From Entophlyctis helioformis (lineage: Eukaryota; Chytridiomycota; Chytridiomycetes; Chytridiales; Chytriomycetaceae), in NCBI GenBank assembly GCA_025526915.1, contig JAHLKH010000005.1, forward strand, positions 223,211 through 287,210: 64,000 nucleotides of DNA, read 5' to 3'. Every line of letters begins with the position of its first letter. Within the stretch, counting starts at the first letter, position 1. Both the position numbers and the translations under genes were made by a program. This document shows positions 26,562-64,000 of this stretch, in pieces. Below the pieces are notes generated by a model that saw only the letters and a program-made list of their open reading frames with translations, was not told where the DNA came from and did not search any database.

Positions 26562-26603
26562 CGTGTAGTTTTGCGGTAAAACTCCAAAAACGGTTGCAAG
26601 GCG

Positions 26604-26865
26604 GTTCTCGTATGGGATCCGCTGCTTGCACTGCGGGCACATCTGGCTGGTCAGGTTCTCGTTGCAGCGGTAGATCTGTGTGTGTGTGCGTTCATGATCA
26701 TGTGTCAGTTGGTTCACAGACGGATGGATGGATGGATAGTTGGCATCAGACGCACATAGGCATATCCAGACGACCGCAGATGCCTGATGAGAAACCTCTC
26801 AAACACAGCATGCCGGCCACATTGGCCTGTAAAGTCGATGCCAAATGCCCAGACAGCGGGAATGC
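26604..26865 (-). pseudogene. Fanzor nuclease fragment in AAMP/Ste50-like promoter
   Basis: This 262-base stretch is nearly the same as 32794-33053 of the large Fanzor gene. On the minus strand it holds part of the RuvC-II region exon (AFGIDF, then the FLIRHLRSSGYAY coding sequence), the following intron with its GGATGGAT repeat and GT-rich 3' end, and the next exon IYRCNENLTSQMCPQC, ending just after the first Cys pair of the zinc ribbon. Both ends are abrupt: the second Cys pair and RuvC-III are missing, as is everything before RuvC-II. It lies wholly inside the 371-base region between the AAMP and Ste50-like start codons. The retained exon remains open and in frame with the AAMP ATG (26561). 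Retention of the intron indicates a DNA-level copy, not a reverse-transcribed one. Confidence 0.9.
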
Positions 26866-32120: not shown

Positions 32121-32145
32121 TTAAAGGTGCTGGTTTTGGTGTTTC

Positions 32146-32161
32146 AACCGGCCTGGAAAAG
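32146..32161 (+). repeat. Putative target-site duplication, Ste50-like side
   Basis: AACCGGCCTGGAAAAG, 26 bases after the Ste50-like stop codon, matches 41185-41201 with a single extra G there. Direct orientation and position at both borders of the Fanzor island suggest a duplication made on insertion. Confidence 0.5.
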
Positions 32162-32171
32162 GGCCCGATAT

Positions 32172-32184
32172 TCATACCATTACC
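32172..32184 (+). repeat. Terminal inverted repeat, Fanzor 3' side
   Basis: TCATACCATTACC is the exact reverse complement of 41171-41183. With a few mismatches the similarity extends outward over about ten further bases (GGCCCG). The inner flank is the conserved 3' hairpin of the Fanzor non-coding segment. Confidence 0.55.
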
Positions 32185-32404
32185 AAGAAGTATTGAATAC
32201 AATTCATCGCAAGAGGCGACGAATGCAAGCCAGCACATCACACGATGGAAGGTTCGAGTCAGCAACGAGCATGCAATGACAAGCGGGCGAGGCACATCCA
32301 ACGAGATGCTTACCTTGCACCATTGTTTGAACAATGATGTGATAAGTGACCCGTTAGGTCGATCGGGAGGTCCCCCGATTCAAAGTGTTGGTAGTCAAAC
32401 AAGT
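32185..32404 (-). ncRNA. Candidate Fanzor guide RNA scaffold (fRNA), copy A
   Basis: The 200-odd bases after the Fanzor stop are non-coding yet strongly conserved with 63446-63630 in the same position after another Fanzor gene, while the protein tails of the two copies differ. Read on the minus strand there is a hairpin with stem ATCGGG/CCCGAT and 6-base loop (32362-32379), then GGTAAG, then GGATGTGCCTCGCCCGC, GCTGACTCGAACC, and near the element end a 9-pair hairpin (32202-32224) whose stem shows a T-A to A-T exchange in the other copy. TnpB and Fanzor loci usually encode their guide RNA in exactly this 3' position, with the guide read from the flank beyond the element end. The function is inferred; conservation and pairing are seen. 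Confidence 0.6.
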
Positions 32405-35400
32405 CACTGTGGGATGCAGGTCAAGTGACTTGAGGCAGGCTGTCCGCGTGTTGGTCGCAGCTGGTCGACACGTCTTGCACGATCCTGGACAACAGGCCGA
32501 TCAGATGGTGTTGGAGGCTGCTGGATGACTGGCGGATCGAGTGGTGCCAGAGGCTGCTGGTCGACAGGCGGAGCACGTATTGCACGCAGCTGGATGGAGA
32601 TATGCATTGCCGCGATGCTGTTGAGGTGCGCTTGCGTGGCTGGATTGCTGTCGGCTTTGGTGTGCGTCAAGTAGAGCGGCCGGTGTCCAAAGAGCAGATG
32701 CCACAGTGCGACCATCCCGATGTTGGTGGCTCCAAGCACGTCGCGGTGGTAGACGGTCTTGCAGTCTGTGCACTCGTAGCGTCGCAGGTTGGTGCGGTTC
32801 TTGTCTGGGATCCGCTGCTTGCACTGCGGGCACATCTGGCTGGTCAGGTTCTCGTTGCAGCGGTAGATCTGTGTGTGTGTGCATGATCGTGTGGTCAGTT
32901 GGTGCACAGATGGATGGATGGATGGCATGGCATCAGACGCACATAGGCATATCCAGACGACCGCAGATGCCTGATGAGAAACTTCTCAAACACAGCGTGC
33001 CGGCCACCTTGGCCTGTAAAGTCGATGCCAAATGCCCACACAACGGGAATGTCCTTCTCTGTTGGCTTGTCACAGCGGCCTTGAGATGCACAAGATGCAC
33101 GCTCTCCAGTCTTTGATCCTGCCAGATTCATGATGCCCTCAAGAGCGTTTCCGCGAATAGATGTGCGGTTGCTGCACATGGTGAACCGCTTGGCCTTGAC
33201 CTTCTGTGGAATGCCATGCCATGCCATGCCATCCAGTGTGATCAGCAGGCGATCAAGCAGCATGGCGGCCGTGGCAATGGGCATCCAGAACCAGAGAAAA
33301 CATACCTTGCATTCAGGAATGGCGAGCAGTACGCCAAGCAGCGCAGATCCCAAAAGGCTCTCTCGCCAGGCTTGACGTTTGGATCGGCATGCTTTGCTGT
33401 CTTGAATGCAATAACCTCGTGGACGTCGGCTGCCTTGGCATATGATTGTTGAGCCTGGCACAAGAGACAGGCACTGTGAGTTGATCTGGTCAAGAATGCG
33501 CGTGGCAGAGTCATTGCATACATACCACCGCTGAAAGATGCCCTCAGCATGTGCCATGCCAGAGGAGAGCACGTAGTTGGACTCGAGCGTATACGAAAAG
33601 TCTCTGAGGTCGACCAAGATGCTGGACGCGCCATACAGGTACCGCTTGCCCCAATCAATGCCGACAATACGCACAAACCGGTAGCCCTTGTTGGTGAACA
33701 GCTTGTTGGCTTTGAGGATGTTGGGCAATCGCTGCGAGGCGAAAAAGTTGCGCTGGGCCTGTCATGACATGGCATGAGTGAGGAATGTGCAATGCATGTG
33801 CACCAATGCGCGAGGTTGGCATGCAAGTGGCTTACAGGATTGGGCGTGTATGACTTGGCGGCTGATGGGTCGGCTGGATCGGCGGCTGTGGATGGCATGT
33901 CAGTCGGTGTGGACAACAAGAACGCGTCTGGATTGGCACAGCAACTCACATGTGACGTCCATGTGATCATGCCCATCATGCCCATCATCATGAGCATCAC
34001 CAGCAAGACTGAGCTGCTCGCCTGAAGACGCCGGATCAGAACCTGCAGATCGAGGCGGCAGTCAGAACCAATGTGTGCACCATCGCATTCAAGCACGCCA
34101 CATACTGCGTGGTGACTCTGGACGGTCTGTGCGAAAGTCCAGAGTCAGCTGAGAGACGCTGTATCCATCAGTCTTGATGCTGCCTAGTCTGACAGCCTTG
34201 GTTGGTCGCGCTGGGGGCAGGGCTTTGATCGCAGCCTGGATGTAATCCTCGCGCTCCTTGCCATCCAGACTCTGCTTGTTGGCCTCTTGCGTCGCCTTGG
34301 CTTTGGCCGCATTCTTTGCCTTGGCGTTGGCCGCGTCCATATCTGCTTGGGCCTCTGCCGGCGTTTGATACCGTCGTGTATCCGAGGCAAGTCCAGGGAG
34401 GAGGATGTCGAGAACGCAATCCTCGCGGCTTGAGCTGAAAGCGGTTTGTATGTCCTTGCTGGATGACACAAGAGTCAAGGCTTGCAAGCCAGGCTCTTTG
34501 AGAAGAGTGGTTTGTAAGTATCAAATCATGTAAACATGGCATAACCAAGTGCGACCTACTGCTGATCGCAGCCAAGAGACGCTCTTGCAAAGCCTGCAAT
34601 GCCGCGTTGTTCTTGGTTGGCTTGCGATCCTTCAGGTTCCCTATCACCGACCAAAACAGAATGGTCTCGGTGATATGGACAAACGGGTCCCGATTCGCCG
34701 CCTCAGGGCATAACTTGATCACTGTTTCGCCGGCCAGCTTGCGCAGCCGGTAGAACTTGCCTATTTCCGACAGCGATTTGTTGAGCAAGATCGCCGCAAG
34801 CCTGACCAGCTGTCGGGGGATCCCAGCAATGGCTATTCCCTCCGTGTCTGAAGGTGTGCTGGATGCCGCGTCTGTGGTGGCCTCGTCCCTCTCGCCACAT
34901 GGCTTCTTGGTCGCGGTGCAATCGGTGGGCGACGAAGAGCTAGACAGGGCCCTCTTGCGACCTGCCGCAGGAGGTGCAGCATCCAGAGTGGCTTGTGGTG
35001 CAGCGTCAAGATCGGCCAGCGATGGGGCATCCTCAGCGACCAGCGGCATGGCGTCCTCAGCGACCTGTGGTGTGGCATCCTCAGCGGCCAGTGGTGTGGC
35101 GTCCTCAATGGCTTTGGTCATGGCCGCGACTGATGCCACGACCTCCTCCTTTGATGCACCGGGCATCAGCTGGTGGGCAGCAGCAAGCACGAGCATCGAC
35201 TGGTTCGAGATGACATGCACTGCCAGCATGGTGCAGATATCTCGGGCCAAGTAGTTGTAGATGTCATTGGTCGCTTTCCCACACAGACCAACAGCCAGCT
35301 TGCATGGCAGGACTGCCTTGTCCAAATCTGTCTGGATCGCGCTTGTCTGGATCGCGTCCATCTTGTCAGCATCCATCATATCCATGCCCATCATGTCAGC

Positions 35401-37498
35401 ATCAGCCATGTCTGCACGCACCTTGCCTGCATTGGCGTGCACCATGCGCCGCGTCCAGTTACGGTGAACAATCAGTTGCATGACGGTGACCAACCATGCG
35501 TTGGTGGTGTCCATGTTTGATCGCGGCTTTGCCATGCGACCATTGCCAACAATCGTGACAATGTGGCGTAGGAGACATGCCACAGACGTCTCGCCGCCGG
35601 ATCTGCTGCTGGTCAGTGCTGTGAGGAGTTGATTGGCAGTTGGAATGACTGCTGCTGCTTCTGCTGCTTCTGCTTGCTGCTCGTGCTGCTCATGCTGCTC
35701 GTCATCCTCGTGATTCTCATGCTGCTCATCGTCCTCGTGATCCTCATGATCGTCATCGTCCTCGTGGTCATCATGATCATCATCATCCTCGTGGTCGCGA
35801 TCATCCTCATGGCTGTCAGGACCGTCAGGGTTGTTGGGGCCATTGGGCTGCTTGGGCTTCTTGACGCGTCCGAGCAAACAGAGCTCAAGCACTGTGCCCT
35901 TTGAGAGGATCACAGAATCCCCATAGAAAGGGATTTTGCCCTTGCGACCATGTGGACCAACGCCGTACATAAACCGGACCATGGTGTCCTTTTCCAGCAC
36001 ACAGTATCCTGCCAAGAGCGCAGCCTCCGTCTTGCGGTCAAGTTTCTCGCGATCAAGAAAGCAGTAGTTGGTCTTTCCATCACGGGTCCACTTGAAAACG
36101 CGATAATCAAGTGGCAGCGGCTCATCTGACTCGAGCTTGAGCAGTACTTCGAGAACAGCGCCGAGCATCACAATCCCGACATGCCGAGCGCCGACGATGA
36201 ACGTGTAAACCTTGGCAATGCAGGCTAGGACGACCATGGCGATGGTTTGCTCTGCTGATGGTGGTTTGGCTGGAGGGCCCAACAACTTTGCGCTTGCTGG
36301 ATTGTCTGAAACCATCTCCTGCACACCTGTCAGCACACACAAAGCCGAGCATGCAGAGCAGCATGGCGATCAACTCCCATACCTTCAGATCCACAATCAT
36401 ATTGGGGCGATGTTGCTGCGTGTTTGTCTGAGCCTTTGGTGCTTTGGGATGCTGCTGTGCCTCCTGCTCGCGCTCGTCCTCGTCCTTCTCCTTGTCTTTC
36501 TCCGTGCCCTCCTCTGTTGGTGCTTTGAAATTGGCGGCTGCAGGAAGAGTCTGGCAGGCCCCTTGTTTGAAGTCGCCCATCCGGACAAGCTCATTGTGCC
36601 AGGCGCGTCGGTCATGAAATGCGTATCTGCCAGCAGAATGCATGTCAGCAAGCACAATCAAGGCACGCGACGTGCCATATGCCACTTACGCCCGTGTCTC
36701 GTCCTCAGATTGAGCCTGGCGGGCTTGCTTGCTCGCATCCTTCTTGTTCTCCTTGACGATCTCATCTGCCTTGGCCTTCTCTGCACGCTCTGCCCTCTCC
36801 TTCTCACGTGCAGCCAGCATTGCCGGCGTGCAATGGCGTGGCTCCTGTCGCGGTTGGATCCAGTATCAGGTGTCCATTCCGCGTGCACAAGATGCTCACA
36901 ATCACAAGCCTGCAGTTCCACTCACAGTTGTCTTTGTGTCATCAAACACACCAAGAGGGAATCTCTTAAGGCATGCTTGGTTGGCGCGATCGTTCTCAGA
37001 TGACCTGGGCAGCTTTTCTGGCGGTGGAGGAGGGCCAGCCTGTCAAGCAAAAGGATGAGCAATCGTGCCAAATCACTGCGGCACACACAGACAATGGAAG
37101 ATGAGACGCACTGCAGCTTGCTCAATGACTTTCTGCAGCAGAGTAATGGCCTTTAGACGCTGATTGACAAGTGTGATTGAATGGCCCCTGCCCTTGCCCT
37201 TGCCCATGCTGATGCGTCGATTCTTGAGGCCGTTCAGGGCGTCCAGCAGGTCTGTGGCTTCCGCATGGATAACTTCAAACGTGTCTGCCGGTGCCACTCT
37301 TGTACTGATCCGTCTGCGGTGCTTGATCGGCTGTGTGTCTTGCTGCGTTTGTGGATCTGCAATGACGCGTTCCACAATGATGGCATTGTGAGTGGATGAT
37401 ATCAAGTCATCGCAAAGCAAGCAGCACATACTGGGAGTGGATACATTGCAGAATGAGGCGCGTTTGGGATGCGCGATCTTGTACAGCCGATCGCGCAT
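32404..37498 (-). CDS. Fanzor (eukaryotic TnpB-like) RNA-guided nuclease
   Basis: The C-terminal half has the RuvC-like nuclease plan. SIKTDGYSVSQLTLDFR (about 34140-34190) precedes RuvC-I, IVGIDWGKRYLYGAS, with its Asp at 33654-33656. The RuvC-II region is IPVVWAFGIDFTGQGGRH (about 33010-33060). A zinc ribbon CPQC...YECTDC follows (32755-32850), and RuvC-III is YHRDVLGATNIG (about 32715-32750). The usual RuvC-II Glu is absent from the VVWAFG strand, and a Glu sits in NENLTSQMC just before the ribbon, as described for Fanzors (from recall). Upstream is one 2.1-kb open stretch (34168-36315) with an Asp/His/Glu-rich linker. Splice joints that keep frame (KVIEQAA to AGPPPPPEK, VFDDTKTT to EPRHCTP, DLK to EMVSDNP) carry the reading frame up to 37498. 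The true start is unresolved, and the exon pattern between RuvC-I and RuvC-II is uncertain. Confidence 0.8.
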
Positions 37499-37536
37499 TC
37501 TTGGAGCAACAGTCTGTGCAGGAGCAATGGATCGAG

Positions 37537-39539
37537 TCAGTCACATTCAAGATCAACAACCACACATGGTGCAAGAGCAACAGCATGCATCCAAGCCATG
37601 CAGCAACTTACAAAGGCGTGCAAAATGAGCTTATCTTGTTTGCTGAGACCTGCATACTCATCCGGCTCAATAGATTGCTCCCTGACGGTCTGCAGAAGCT
37701 GGGTACTAGCTGTCCTGCAAATGGCAGACAGGATATTACGGCGTGTGACGGCATTGTAGTTGTCGGCAAGGAGCTCAACCGCATGCCTGTTGATGGCACC
37801 CATCGCCACGCGGCATCCCTTGACTTCCCTGAATGCAGCGTCCAGCTGCCCACTGATGACAATGGTGATGGCAAGCTGCTCAACAGCACTGCGTGTAAGA
37901 TGAACAGCTGCAGGGATGGGCTCGCCATTCTTTGCCTTGGGATGATTCAAGCAGCATCCAGGCGACAAGCACCTGGAGAATGATCAGAGAATGGCATCAA
38001 CACAGACAGGCGGTGTCAGTTTTTCCAGAAACGCCACAGATGGCATGCATGCATACTTGGTCTCAGCTGAGGCAGCCGTGTCAACATCCATGCTGTTGGC
38101 ATCGCCTGATTGATGCTCAGAACTGGCAAGGCATTCAAACGGGTCAATGCCAGTATGTCTGCAACCGCACTTAATCAAGAAGCTTGCCTGGTTGCAATCA
38201 CGCCAGTTGGTGCACTGGGCTCAGTCTGGTTGACAAAGATGTCAAATGCATTCTGGAATGAGTGCACAAGGCTCCCATCGCCAATCTCAGCCAACTCTTT
38301 GATGTACGCGTCCTTGACAGCATGCATGAATATGCTGGCCTCAAATGGAGTTTGAAGGATGGCACAGAGCTCGGATTTCTCAATCCCCAGCTCAACAGCC
38401 TTGGCGTTGAACTGCGTGTTGGTGAATTCAGTGGCAGCCGCGATTCCTGGCAGGGAATGCAAGCAGAATCGTGCACAAAGACAAAGAATGGCGTGAGTGA
38501 TGACAGATACAACAAAACAGGCGTGGCAACTCACCGTAGCCATGGCGGGCAAAGAAATCTGTATGAGAAAGTGAAGCAATCAGCTTGCACACACCGCGAA
38601 AATCCCACACACCAAAGGCGGATGCCATGGTGGCAATCCCACCATGGTTGTAGGATCGCATTGGTGCGATCCGCCCATGCTGCATGTGCGTCAAAATGAC
38701 AGCACAATGCCCAGCAGCATGGGCAACAAGGTCGGAGTCATTTCCAACAACAATCATTGGCTTTGGACTGCCACTCAATGCATACTGTGAGCCATCAACT
38801 AGAACAGAAGAACGCCACAATGATCTCTTACCTTGACTTGCAAACATGGCGGGCGATGCAACAGTCTGCCTCGTAGTCACAATGGCAGACCGTGCATCCC
38901 TTCTTTTTGCCAACAAGCTCGTTGAGGGCTTCAACGATGTGCCGCTTATCCATCTGGTCAATGTGAAGAACCTCTTGAGAGCGTGTTTCTCTTCCCTGAT
39001 CGCCAGAAGCAGAAGATGGTTAGTAAGGCAGACACACAGTATAGAGAAGCAAGCCTACTTGGTCATCGACCCCGCCTGCTTGTATTCTTGACGCTGGTAG
39101 GTGTGCTGCTGGACTGTGGCGGCTGCTTCGAGCATCTTGAGTGTGCGGCTGTGGTGGACCAGCTTGACCTCCGAGTCGCCGAGACGCCCGTCAACATGGA
39201 ACCAGACGTCGTGGCCGTCGCCAAGCGACGCCATGAAGACCTCCAAGGCCGGCTGGATAATGGCCTTCCAGCCGGCCTTGGAGTCTGGCTGGCTGATGGC
39301 GGCTGTTGCAACCAAGGCCGAAAAGAAGAAGCTGAGAAAGTCGACATGTATAGTGCTGCTGATGAAGCTGCTGGCGGCTGTTGTTGTGCGGCTGTTGCTG
39401 TTGCTGTTGTTGCGGCTTGCTGTTGCGGCAGTGTGCTATGGAGCACAACCTGCACGACCTGGCCCAGGGCCCAGGCAGCGGTGTGGACAAGGACGGCGCC
39501 ATGCGACTCAGCCACTTTCAGCAGGCCTACGAAAGTCAT
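37537..39539 (-). CDS. XPG/FEN1-like (PIN-fold) nuclease, possibly fused to Fanzor
   Basis: Motifs of the FEN1/XPG fold lie in order. AWKAIIQPALEVFMASLG with HDVWFHVDGRLGDSEVKL (about 39130-39270) resembles the strand-Asp-Gly-K part of the N-domain. CHCDYEADCCIARHVC (38848-38900) resembles the I-domain E-A-D motif. KPMIVVGNDSDLVAHAAGH (38705-38765) resembles the SNDSDLL motif. Helical exons to about 37984 follow, then SAVEQLAITIVISGQLD and SKQDKLILHAF, which splices in frame (donor GTAAGT, acceptor TGCACAG) to TVAPRMRDRLYKIAHPK of the next entry. The frame continuity suggests one long fusion gene, but two tandem genes cannot be excluded. A possible ATG is at 39539 (MTFVGLLKVAESHGAVL). I do not see the classical GI-xx-L-WxxL start. 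It probably acts on DNA; role inferred. Confidence 0.55.
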
Positions 39540-41001
39540 GTTGGTGCTGCTGCTGCTGTGTGGTGTGTGTGTGGTGCTGTGTGGTGTGTGTGTGTGGTAC
39601 GTGCTGCTGCTGCGTCTGTATCTGTGTTTACGAGAAAAGAATCGGAGCGTCTGGCGGAGTTGAACTTTCATTGCCGACAAACAGAGAGCGAGTGGATAGA
39701 GAGCGAGCATCTGGCACTCGCCGCCCACTGTCCAACAGCCATAGAGGGAGCAGCGAGCACAGCCAACAGCCAGGCGTTCAAGATGCGTTCTTGTGTTGCT
39801 GGCACAGTCATTGATGTGATGCCACTCAGTGCGCAGCTTGATATGCACCATGCAGCATCACTCTGCGTGTCATGAGCTGCATTGCAGCAAGCCTCTCTCC
39901 GAGTGTCGTCTTCTCAGTCAATGTCCCACTGCATCCAACAATCGCCCTGATATGTGTCTGCATTGTGACCCAGTGTGATGCAGTTGGTGTTGCCTGACTG
40001 GCCAGCTGGTCCATGGACAGGTTGGCCGTTGGCGCACTCCCCTCTGCTCTGGATTGTCCTTGTCAACAAACACAGTGCATGCAAGACTGGGATCGTCAGG
40101 ACCATCATCATCATCATCCTTGTTGTGGTTGTTGAATGAATGGAGAGTGCTTGGTCTGTCTGTCTGGCCACTCCAGTTGCTGCTCAGTGGATCGCATCCA
40201 AGATGCCATCGCACCAAGTGCAATGTGGCCAGACACACCTGCCAGCACTCGCGTCCTCCTCACCAATCTCGTCTGGATCAGTGTCGTCGAGTGTGCTGCT
40301 CGCCGAGTGTGCTGCCACTGCCTAGTTTGGCATCCAAGTCGGCATGCCGATCCAGCTGTTCAGCAAGCAGTTCCTGCAGCCAACTCCAAGGATCGGCCCA
40401 TTGAGCACGTCTCAGTGGCTGCTCATCACTGCTGCTGCATCCCATGTCGCAGTCGGAATGCACCAGGCAGCTCAGTCCTGCGATGCCAACGCTCTCGCTG
40501 TCCTCTTGAACAACAACCAGATCGCCCTGCTCACGGCCGTCTTGCCGACGTCCCTTGCTGTTTGGAGCCATCAGACATGCACACAGTCAGTGCCAAGACC
40601 ACACAGACACGGTCGTCAGACTGCTGTGCCATCGTCATCAAGTGGCAATGCACATCCCTGAACAGACAGCGAGTCAACGCACCTGCTTGCCTGTCTGCAG
40701 CCTGCCTTCTGTCCCCCGCCTTGTTGGGCACGCCTCTCAGACGGCCACGACCATGCTGCTCTGCTGCATGGCCTGCTGCATGCCACCTTGAGCAGTGAGC
40801 CTCGCCCTCTCCCCTGAAGGACTCGACCAGCAAGCGAGCGCTGTCCCATATCCGTGCTGTCGCCTGCGTTGCCGTCGTTGTCGTTTGGCTCGTTGTTGTT
40901 TGTGTGCAGTTGGGCGGCAAGTGCAGCAGCGTCTGGATCTGGCATGGCGCGTTGCTGCTGTGCTCGCATCGCGCAGTGTCAGCACTTCGCAAGGGCTCTC
41001 T
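39540..41001. other. Element interior without a confident gene
   Basis: About 1.46 kb inside the Fanzor island lies between the possible XPG-like start and the 28-base repeat array. Short minus-strand reading frames exist (for example MPDPDAAALAAQLHTNNN near 40890-40945, and an acidic helical stretch near 40300-40560) and could be further 5' exons, but none shows a recognisable domain. CTG/CAG-rich and GTGTG-rich stretches occur at 39360-39620. Confidence 0.4.
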
Positions 41002-41169
41002 AGATCGACCAATCACAGCGATTCCACCAACCCAGCCAATCGCAGCGATTCCACCAGGATCGACCAATCAGGAATAGTCCACCAGGATTGACCAATCACA
41101 GCGATTCCACCAGGATTGACCAATCACAGCGATTCCACCAGGATTGACCAATCACAGCGATTCCACCAG
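41002..41169 (+). repeat. 28-base tandem repeats with CCAAT boxes at element end
   Basis: Six copies of a 28-base unit lie at 41002-41030, 41031-41057, 41058-41085, 41086-41113, 41114-41141 and 41142-41169. The last three are identical and begin GATTGACCAATCACAG and end CCACCAG. The first three are diverged. Each unit holds CCAATCR, the NF-Y/HAP binding core. The array stops two bases before the terminal inverted repeat at 41171. It could be subterminal transposon repeats or promoter elements for either flank. Confidence 0.9.
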
Positions 41170-41170
41170 G

Positions 41171-41183
41171 GGTAATGGTATGA
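41171..41183 (+). repeat. Terminal inverted repeat, WNK side
   Basis: GGTAATGGTATGA is the inverted partner of 32172-32184. The same 13 bases in a 22/23 match (CACCAGrGGTAATGGTATGAGAA) also occur upstream of ATP4 at 49988-50010. Confidence 0.55.
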
Positions 41184-41184
41184 G

Positions 41185-41201
41185 AACCGGGCCTGGAAAA
41201 G
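41185..41201 (+). repeat. Putative target-site duplication, WNK side
   Basis: AACCGGGCCTGGAAAAG, a direct repeat of 32146-32161 with one extra G, lies immediately outside the inverted repeat and 20 bases before the WNK ATG. Confidence 0.5.
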
Positions 41202-41221
41202 CGACCTTCTCGCTGACCGCC

Positions 41222-41885
41222 ATGCATCCAGGGGGCTCCGCATACCAGGCATCGGCACACACAGGCGCAGCATCAGCACAGGGAGCAGCAGGAGCATCGG
41301 CTATGCCCGCTGCCAACGACCCAACGCAGCTGCTGCTTTCTCCGCAAGAGGCAAACGTCGACCGGTCTGACACGGAGCGGGTCGTTGAAGAGAGCCCGAA
41401 CCGACGATACGCAAAGGTGTGTGCGGATGCGGGTGTCGGTGCAGATGTCGCCATGCTCCACACCACGCCTCCCCACTCGCTGCCTGCTGGCTCGCTGGCC
41501 GCTTGGCTGGCTCGCTGGCGTGCGAGCGTTGTGCGTGTGTCTGTTCTGCGTCGTGCTGGACAGCATGCCAGCCGCCTCGGTGACTGTCGTGGTCGCACGG
41601 CTCGGCTGTGGCAGGACTGGTCTGCGAGGAACAGACGAGAGCCCGTGGCACAGACGCTTGCATGGATGCGGATGCGTCGCCGGCCAGCTAGCTCGAGTAT
41701 GGCACCCGATGCAACGGCGATGCAGCCTCGCTGCCAGCCCATCCATCCATCTGCCCGTCCGTCCGTCTGTCCATCTGTGTGTGGCGTCGAGGATGATTCA
41801 TGCCACTGCCAATCGGGTGTCCTCTGTCGCATGGACAACCATGTCTAACAGCCCGTTGCCATGTCCGCCTGCCTGCCTGTCTGCC

Positions 41886-63326: not shown

Positions 63327-63445
63327 CTCGCACAATCTCGCGTCGTGCTGTGTCAAGCCAAGTCGGCTGCATGAGAAGGTTGTGGCTGAGGGGTGGGCAA
63401 TAGGGCGAGGGAATGCCGGCAGTTGCCGGCAAAATGCCCGACATC

Positions 63446-63630
63446 CAAACAATTACCAAGAATCATTGAATTAAATTCGACCCAAGAGGCGTCGAATGTA
63501 AGGCAAGCATAACACACGATTGAAGGTTCGAGTCAGCAACCAGCATGGACGACAGGCGGGCGAGGCACATCCAACGAGGGTCTTACCTTCGTAAAGTGAC
63601 CCTATTGGTCGATCGGGAGGTGCCCCGATT
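63446..63630 (-). ncRNA. Candidate Fanzor guide RNA scaffold (fRNA), copy B
   Basis: This is the homologue of 32185-32404 after the stop codon of a second Fanzor gene. Shared blocks include the ATCGGG/CCCGAT hairpin (63612-63629), which abuts the TGA, then GGTAAG, GGATGTGCCTCGCCCGC, GCTGACTCGAACC and the terminal hairpin ATTCGAC/GTCGAAT (63475-63497), followed by CTTGGTAAT. The pattern of substitutions preserves pairing. Confidence 0.6.
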
Positions 63631-64000
63631 CATATTGTGCTGGAAGTCACAGCACGTGGAGTTGCATGTGCCTTGCTGGCTCGTGACCCGCGGACAGACC
63701 GTGTCCGTGGTGGAGGCGGCAGGACGATGGGCGGATCGGGTGGTCTTGGAGGCCGCTGGTTGACAGGCAGCTCAGGTACTGGAAGCTGCTGGACGACAGG
63801 CTGACTGGCCTTTGTGTGCGTCAAGTAGAGCGGCCGCTCTCCATCGAGCAAATGCCCCAGTGCGACCATTCCAATGTTGGTGGCTCCAAGCACGTCTCGG
63901 TGGTAGACGGCCTTGCATGCTGTGCACTCGTAGCGTCGCAGGTTGGTGCGGTTCTTGTATGGGATCCGCTGCTTGCACTGCGGGCACATCTGGCTGGTCA
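63630..64000 (-). CDS. Fanzor nuclease, 3' end only (cut by window edge)
   Basis: The zinc ribbon starts MCPQCKQRIPYKNRTNLRRY and continues ECTACKAVYHRDVLGATNIG with the RuvC-III Asp, then HLLDGERPLYLTHTK. After that the sequence departs from copy A into a Pro-rich tail (LPVNQRPPRPPDPPIVLPPP) ending with TGA at 63630-63632. The ribbon part matches copy A closely, so this is a related, probably recent family member; the rest of the gene lies to the right of the window. It is in the same orientation as the unrecognised gene before it. Confidence 0.85.
   Translation of the reverse strand, partial: TSQMCPQCKQRIPYKNRTNLRRYECTACKAVYHRDVLGATNIGMVALGHLLDGERPLYLTHTKASQPVVQQLPVPELPVNQRPPRPPDPPIVLPPPPRTRSVRGSRASKAHATPRAVTSSTI

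Follow-up and report, generated by a model that had tools for sequence, protein, structure and literature searches.

What does a nuclease of the Fanzor type do for the mobile element that carries it? The question has no settled answer, and it is raised again by a 9,032-bp insertion in the chytrid Entophlyctis helioformis. The insertion occupies positions 32162 to 41193 of a 64,000-nucleotide stretch of contig JAHLKH010000005.1 (positions 223,211 to 287,210 of the forward strand), hereafter called the window, and its gene is read from the minus strand. It is one copy of a large, high-copy DNA transposon family. The gene is best read as encoding a single fused polypeptide of ~1,900 aa that consists of an XPG/FEN1-like part, a long middle, and the RuvC and zinc ribbon of a Fanzor, a reading that has good support. 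The best overall explanation, to which slightly better than even confidence is attached, is a high-copy family with terminal inverted repeats (TIRs) whose fused XPG-Fanzor protein would restore lost copies by cutting and processing DNA.

Borders of the element and size of its family

The initial annotation placed a bounded Fanzor-bearing transposon at 32162–41201, and this proposal holds: the insertion has TIRs, an 8-bp target site duplication (TSD), and numerous sister copies that share its tips. The left border at 32162 stands and is the start base common to the copies, whereas the right border has to be moved to 41193. The two TIRs (repeat family I4) match the family tips and lie at 32162–32184 (plus strand, at the 3′ end of the gene) and 41171–41193 (minus strand, at its 5′ end). 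They are 23 bp long, 87% identical, and reach both tips; the 13-base inverted repeat described earlier is real but covers only their inner part. Similarly, a direct repeat of 16/17 bases had been reported, of which the true duplication is 8 bp, TGGAAAAG, with unstranded copies at 32154–32161 and 41194–41201 that were assigned from the sequence and from the TSDs of the family. The remaining bases are a chance likeness: those on the left, AACCGGCC, are host flank, and those on the right, AACCGGGCC, are the element's own tip. Subterminal tandem repeats, six units of ~28 bp, lie at 41003–41168 (unstranded; repeat families D5 and D6), and similar repeats are present at the 5′ ends of subfamilies B and C, which are defined below.

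Evidence that the tips are those of a family comes from genome searches. A search with 32121–41222 gave 49 matches, many of which begin at query base 41 or 42, equivalent to window position 32161 or 32162. Other copies with the same ends, as the initial annotation expected, are therefore found, and none runs past the borders, since only the window copy itself crosses 32161 or 41193 with a query that reached 40 bases beyond the left border and 29 beyond the right. A 21-base tip pattern, with at most one mismatch, matched 172 times in 29.57 Mb and its reversed control 0 times; thus, sister tips are more numerous than chance allows. Exact tip matches numbered 60 of the right type and 64 of the left type. 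When both tips of an element were read (31 elements), the TSD was in register at 7 or more of 8 bases in 16, and two more had a TSD of 8/8 at an offset of 2–3 bp; swapped flank pairs, which served as a control, reached 7 of 8 bases in 8 of 930 cases. TIRs at both tips together with an 8-bp direct target repeat place the insertion among TIR DNA transposons with an 8-bp TSD. Two results weigh against the overall explanation. The other 13 of the 31 elements lack a good TSD in or near register, and no target-adjacent motif was found at 15 sites, the strongest of 32 columns being a G in 10 of the 15 at position -4. These 15 sites were counted as independent, but the flanks of C18 and C272 are alike by eye and 14 is the safer number.

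How large is the family? The seven elements that were measured whole are 7.2–9.2 kb long. A query with the XPG exon gave 149 places from 150 candidates (a few of the places are two pieces of one exon), and a query with the zinc-ribbon (Fanzor) exon gave at least 150 places (150 scored of 269 candidates); in each set, two places contain a stop. The two exons are linked. At least 69 of the 149 XPG places have a same-strand Fanzor exon 5.1–7.9 kb downstream, 67 of the 150 listed Fanzor places have an XPG exon upstream, and among the places listed neither the reversed order nor opposite strands occurred within 8 kb. Among the 80 unpaired XPG places, at least 14 have a Fanzor exon 8.6–18.7 kb downstream, and C60 is counted as unpaired although it carries both parts. 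Four subfamilies are represented by the window copy (A), C7 and C176 (B), C150 (C), and C60 (D). The XPG-like, middle, and Fanzor coding is collinear in these representatives, and the XPG-Fanzor reading is the only coding recognisable in them.

Other members of the family were observed in various states. A second copy in the window (63436–64000, minus strand) is represented by its 3′ end only and runs off the window end, which is also the contig end. It is 74% identical and more diverged, and its tip is one base short of the consensus and different from it. A solitary 264-bp fragment of the Fanzor C-terminal part (26601–26864, minus strand; 92% identity to element positions 633–890) covers the zinc-ribbon region and stands without the rest of the element. 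Elsewhere in the genome, L087, L088, and L089 (C10, C215, and C166) have an identical 3′ flank of ~400 bp and differing 5′ flanks, and L090 and L091 (C150 and C67:108k) have a common 5′ flank of >300 bp and differing 3′ flanks. Such elements may be chimeric or may be neighbours of another repeat. In two pairs, C18/C272 and C67:8k/C297, both flanks are alike as far as read, and these pairs are either segmental duplicates or unmerged haplotypes.

Nuclease-like parts and the 3′ module

The Fanzor RuvC and zinc-ribbon exons lie at 32404–34042 (minus strand), with uncertain exon limits near 33455–33521 and 33172–33213 and a variable C-terminal tail. The Fanzor-type zinc ribbon reported by the initial annotation is recovered by Pfam (TNB, PF07282, E 4.3e-10), and the TnpB models of NCBIfam match below cut-off. 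The predicted protein contains the motifs GIDWG, NENLTS, CPQC..CTDC, and HRDVLGATNI, and thus has both the TnpB-type zinc ribbon and the last RuvC motif that characterise a Fanzor/TnpB nuclease. DWG is present in 17 of 17 loci, NENLTS in 15 (the piece was not recovered in L015 and L032), and HRDVLGATNI in 16 (it is broken in L033); L009 has a stop between RuvC motifs. The D, E, and D residues, assigned by motif, presumably play the catalytic role of RuvC. In SpuFz1, the catalytic residues are D383, E541, and D606 (PMC11423790). A significant alignment of the element's RuvC part to SpuFz1 was not obtained, a profile search of the PDB gave no relevant match, and motif alignment to PDB chains was weak and involved C-terminal motifs only (mimivirus L79, E 0.69; a designed nuclease, E 0.26). 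Fanzor1 proteins are 600–700 aa long and have a REC, WED, RuvC, and TNB architecture (PMC11423790). In the ~1,900-aa model, TNB is present and REC and WED were not recognised by sequence. Two large exons of the gene model (36318–34560 and 34495–34106, spanning 34106–36318 on the minus strand) display codon-phased conservation, include a low-complexity acidic stretch, and are perhaps the REC/WED part.

The 3′ end of the element is a candidate for holding the guide RNA (reRNA/omega RNA), predicted at 32162–32385 (minus strand) from invariant blocks and folding. The last ~250 nt contain long blocks that are invariant in 19 copies. A hairpin at 32361–32381 is kept in all 19 aligned copies, allowing a variable loop base, and the same hairpin occurs at 63611–63631 in the 74%-identical copy at 63436. 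In the gene models, some copies place the hairpin downstream of the stop codon, whereas others translate through it, in frames that differ. The region folds moderately better than its shuffles (z -2.45; 2 of 200 as good). A point against this assignment is the lack of covariation, with a double change in 0 of 42 pairs, and Rfam returned only chance-level miRNA matches for the 3′ region.

The XPG/FEN1-like part consists of exons 39435–39059, 38990–38832, and 38767–38535 (38535–39435, minus strand) and was assigned from the gene model, acidic residues, Pfam matches below cut-off, and fold. It contains the motifs HVDF, HVDG, YEAD, NDSD, and TDFF. Among 12 sequences, D11, D61, D149, and D172 are invariant and E147, D170, and D230 nearly so. 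Compared with the FEN1 order of carboxylates, these residues correspond, in order, to the conserved catalytic carboxylates of the XPG/FEN1/EXO1 superfamily. Pfam XPG_I_2 matched 6 of 12 members and 5 of 5 proteins, all below cut-off, and Foldseek on a predicted structure placed ExoIX first, with EXO1, FEN1, and XRN1 among the VIA rows of the fold comparison. Several results weigh against the assignment. No Pfam match to XPG rises above the cut-off, and the window-type sequence itself has no XPG match in Pfam. PDB sequence and profile searches with this part gave no relevant match, and a comparison with the host RAD2 profile was plausible in register but not significant. Both structure models are poor (predicted local distance difference test scores of 42.5 and 50.3); the first, at 42.5, gave meaningless matches, and unrelated folds rank level with EXO1. 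Nuclease activity is a predicted property of the XPG-like part and of the Fanzor part alike.

A search with the XPG alignment returned eight E. helioformis proteins and one metagenome protein, P0009, which is 417 aa long, has XPG-like motifs, and is encoded on a 1,677-base contig. The XPG-like family may therefore exist outside Entophlyctis. No fused relative was present among the ~8,000 best candidates for the fused protein, nor among those for the Fanzor part, and viral contigs, scanned with just two short peptide patterns per alignment, gave 0 relatives for the XPG or RuvC alignment.

The subfamilies form a mosaic. Between 32200 and 34000, identity of the window copy to B, C, and D is 82–96% per 200-bp bin, except for bin 32400, the variable tail, where it is 79, 77, and 57%, respectively. 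Inward of this stretch, identity falls to 53–80% between A and D and to 45–78% between A and C; between A and B, it stays at 80–100% up to ~36,800 and is then 47–69%. The synonymous substitution rate (dS) for A-D and A-C is 0.14–0.16 in RuvC exons vs 0.66–0.92 in large exons, and a boundary near 34,200 recurs in both comparisons. Because the module is 82–96% alike and the interiors are 45–80% alike, the 2-kb RuvC and 3′-end module is read as exchanged or homogenised between subfamilies A, C, and D. By what process? The probable answer is not RNA-guided conversion but either ordinary ectopic recombination or 3′ ends that descend from a recent common ancestor. Multi-copy repeats recombine, and several elements have mismatched flanks. 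Moreover, subfamilies A and D are also alike in the 5′ non-coding region (39600–41170, unstranded; 93–96% identity in 200-bp bins), which means that the RuvC side is not alone in being shared. The recurrent boundary near 34,200 with its drop in dS may be set against ordinary recombination, but it fits either reading. A coding capacity for the 5′ 1.6 kb was considered and rejected, since 19 of 100 indels have a length divisible by 3 and codon phase is absent.

The transposase and the probable unity of the gene

Where does the transposase come from? No transposase was found in Pfam or NCBIfam among the element open reading frames (ORFs) tested, which weighs against a self-sufficient element, and none of nine element ORFs searched in Pfam had a KDZ match. 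It is about an even bet that the elements are non-autonomous passengers of an unrelated transposase acting in trans, for example of the KDZ/Zisupton or hAT type, and that XPG and Fanzor only aid retention. Passenger elements would be consistent with the best explanation, in which the source of the transposase is left unspecified. KDZ-type matches are present at four places in three contigs (C334:6404–7253, C271:9823–10062, and C396:222–449), three of the four with stops, and these are a possible source in trans. The TSD length would fit as well, because TSDs are 8 bp in Zisupton and usually 8 bp in hAT elements (PMC12730594). However, no KDZ locus was seen with family tips: neither C334 nor C271 figures among the listed exact tips, and the sole exact tip on C396 is ~9.8 kb from the KDZ match. 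A search for hAT with PF05699 gave nothing, but the controls were silent too, so absence is not shown.

A more doubtful possibility is a strongly diverged DDE transposase concealed in the middle region, which would make the protein a transposase-XPG-Fanzor fusion and the element autonomous. More than 1,000 aa of conserved sequence without a family assignment would leave room for one, no other coding was recognised in the four subfamily representatives, and the TIRs and TSDs attest to mobility. The negative Pfam and NCBIfam searches of the element ORFs stand against it.

Does the element contain one gene or two? The initial annotation had a separate partner gene beside the nuclease. Judging by gene models and splice-site conservation, the nuclease and its supposed partner most likely form one protein, with the partner at the N-terminus. 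After training on 11 long window ORFs, among them the element's own 733-aa ORF, a simple splice-aware gene finder read the window copy as a single minus-strand gene under two settings and again in a further run; the 5′ end of the second minus-strand model, which began outside the element, was rejected. Models on the plus strand were likewise rejected (scores of 7.9 vs 164 and 44.8 vs 275 for the minus strand). One gene each was also found in L012 and in both subfamily B elements, one long gene plus a 44-aa gene in subfamily D, and genes of 1,726 and 189 aa in L009. The middle region (36383–38446, minus strand), which is collinear across subfamilies A–D, contains exons 38446–38202, 38115–38057 (doubtful), 37972–37612, and 37513–37432, followed by 37356–37112, 37039–36926, 36844–36690, and 36626–36383, for which splice sites add to the gene model. 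The four introns joining 37112 to 36318 keep their GT and AG in all aligned copies (9/9 and 9/9, 16/16 and 16/16, 16/16 and 13/13, 11/11 and 11/11), and the three linker exons (37039–36926, 36844–36690, and 36626–36383) hold 0 stops. Two linker exons measure 114 and 155 nt in each of A, B, and D and 116 and 155 nt in C. Subfamily B keeps the exon order, including a junction exon that ends in DTKTT before GTGAGT, and its protein is 28–46% identical to that of A in the XPG half and >80% identical in most of the Fanzor half.

Selection was assessed as the ratio of nonsynonymous to synonymous substitution rates (dN/dS), computed against the window copy for XPG, large, and RuvC exons and, for the middle, pooled within exon groups across all copies that could be aligned. 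The ratio is 0.20–0.41 in the XPG part (comparisons of at least 200 codons), 0.25–0.43 in the large exons, 0.45–0.72 in the RuvC-zinc ribbon, and 0.36 in 38446–37612. Amino-acid change is selected against in the XPG part and large exons, and more weakly in parts of the linker and RuvC. The window copy, which had been described as intact-looking, has a net frameshift at its XPG start (39348–39539, minus strand), a region formed by the ATG at 39539 (MTFVGLLKVAES...) and a CAG-rich linker. Translation from this ATG does not reach the HVDF strand in frame; four sister copies (L009, L011, L012, and L021) read through. As a result, the window copy probably does not make the whole protein.

Several observations weigh against a single, well-constrained gene. 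The fusion is a prediction from gene models, the finder split subfamily C into three genes, and the NCBI gene models (P0001–P0008) are separate shorter proteins, none of which spans both parts. None of 13 copies keeps the donor at 33521. The donor at 38201 is kept in 4 of 9 and the 38446–37612 exon group has one stop in 4 of 9, which makes this part of the gene model doubtful. Pooled dN/dS is 0.62 in 37513–37112 and 0.39, 0.70, and 0.53 in the three linker exons, in that order, so constraint on the linker is moderate at most; single middle-exon comparisons reach 0.97. The RuvC exons as modelled hold 0–2 stops per copy. Elsewhere, 4 of 16 copies have one stop in the middle and L033 has one in the large exons; uncertain exon limits may explain some of the modelled stops. 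Two adjacent genes in the same direction, an XPG-like accessory nuclease and a separate Fanzor between which the finder skipped a stop and a start, would suit the NCBI models, the splitting of subfamily C, the substitution-rich bins 36662–36812 with little codon phase, and the dN/dS of exon 36844–36690 (up to 0.92 in addition to its pooled value), but this arrangement is unlikely in view of the conserved junction splice sites, the stop-free linker exons of equal length in A, B, and D, and a protein similarity between subfamilies that runs across the linker.

As for the surroundings, the element had been placed between two signalling genes. The upstream ORF has no match, and the downstream one has a weak protein-kinase match (PF00069, E 1.8e-6) below cut-off. 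An empty allele, suggested as a check on the insertion, did not appear when the joined flanks were searched in the species' own assembly; only the two flanks themselves matched.

Proposed mechanism and known systems

How might a fused XPG-Fanzor protein serve the element? In the mechanism that forms part of the best explanation, the Fanzor might cut the emptied site and the XPG part might process the break. Excision would be the work of a transposase that either acts in trans or lies cryptic in the middle region. A guide RNA transcribed from the 3′ end of the element and onward into the flank would then direct the Fanzor to the re-closed empty site, which it would cut; the tethered XPG/FEN1-like nuclease would trim flaps or resect 5′ ends; and homologous repair would copy the element back. 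This activity would also drive conversion among the gene copies and could render the RuvC/guide-RNA module homogeneous. Fanzor1 guide RNAs reach ~15 nt past the TSD (PMC10711439), and a Cas9-EXO1 fusion increases homology-directed repair (PMC11107001). A bolder and improbable version sees the protein as a naturally fused machine: an RNA-guided nuclease with its own EXO1/FEN1-like processor would channel each cut at an empty site into copy-back, and the RuvC-guide module would thereby spread through otherwise diverged lineages as a selfish cassette in a selfish element.

Known systems resemble the family in parts. Like Spu-1 with its nuclease SpuFz1 from Spizellomyces punctatus, it is a chytrid-lineage element with TIRs and a TnpB-like nuclease (PMC3627910, PMC10432273), and no transposase was found between the repeats of Spu-1 either (PMC10432273). 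In contrast, Spu-1 is ~2.1 kb long with one 633-aa ORF and putative TA TSDs, compared with 7.2–9.2 kb, ~1,900 aa, and 8-bp TSDs in Entophlyctis, and the XPG-like N-terminal part is a feature of the Entophlyctis family. The IS4-type Fanzor1 elements of Ectocarpus and its virus (ESvi-1B) also have TIRs and 8-bp TSDs (PMC3627910), a likeness in the type of repeats, and XPG goes unmentioned in that paper. A second nuclease accompanies Fanzor in the PGv-1 mariner, which has a GIY-YIG endonuclease and Fanzor1 (PMC3627910), but as separate proteins that include a mariner transposase, whereas in Entophlyctis the XPG-like part is apparently fused and a transposase was not seen. PpFz1 also exceeds the usual 600–700 aa (PMC11423790), in its case by a RuvC insertion of ~100 aa that binds cyclophilin, rather than by a nuclease-like N-terminal part and a long middle. 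The exonuclease editor Cas9-EXO1 likewise couples an RNA-guided nuclease to an EXO1-superfamily nuclease; it is man-made, uses Cas9, and has demonstrated activity (PMC11107001), whereas the Entophlyctis protein would use Fanzor, with activity predicted. A survey of the literature for Fanzor with XPG or flap endonuclease found no such fusion, judging by titles and abstract openings, with most subscription papers outside its scope.

The family offers a testable system for the role of Fanzor in its host elements, with a copy number of ~150 or more, well-marked tips, signature exons almost free of stops, an apparently fused second nuclease, and a mosaic of past exchange. The pairing of XPG and Fanzor could let an element both cut and process its target DNA, and the chemistry of the apparently fused XPG-like nuclease suggests an end-processing step. 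If true, the fusion would be a natural counterpart of the engineered Cas9-EXO1 editors.

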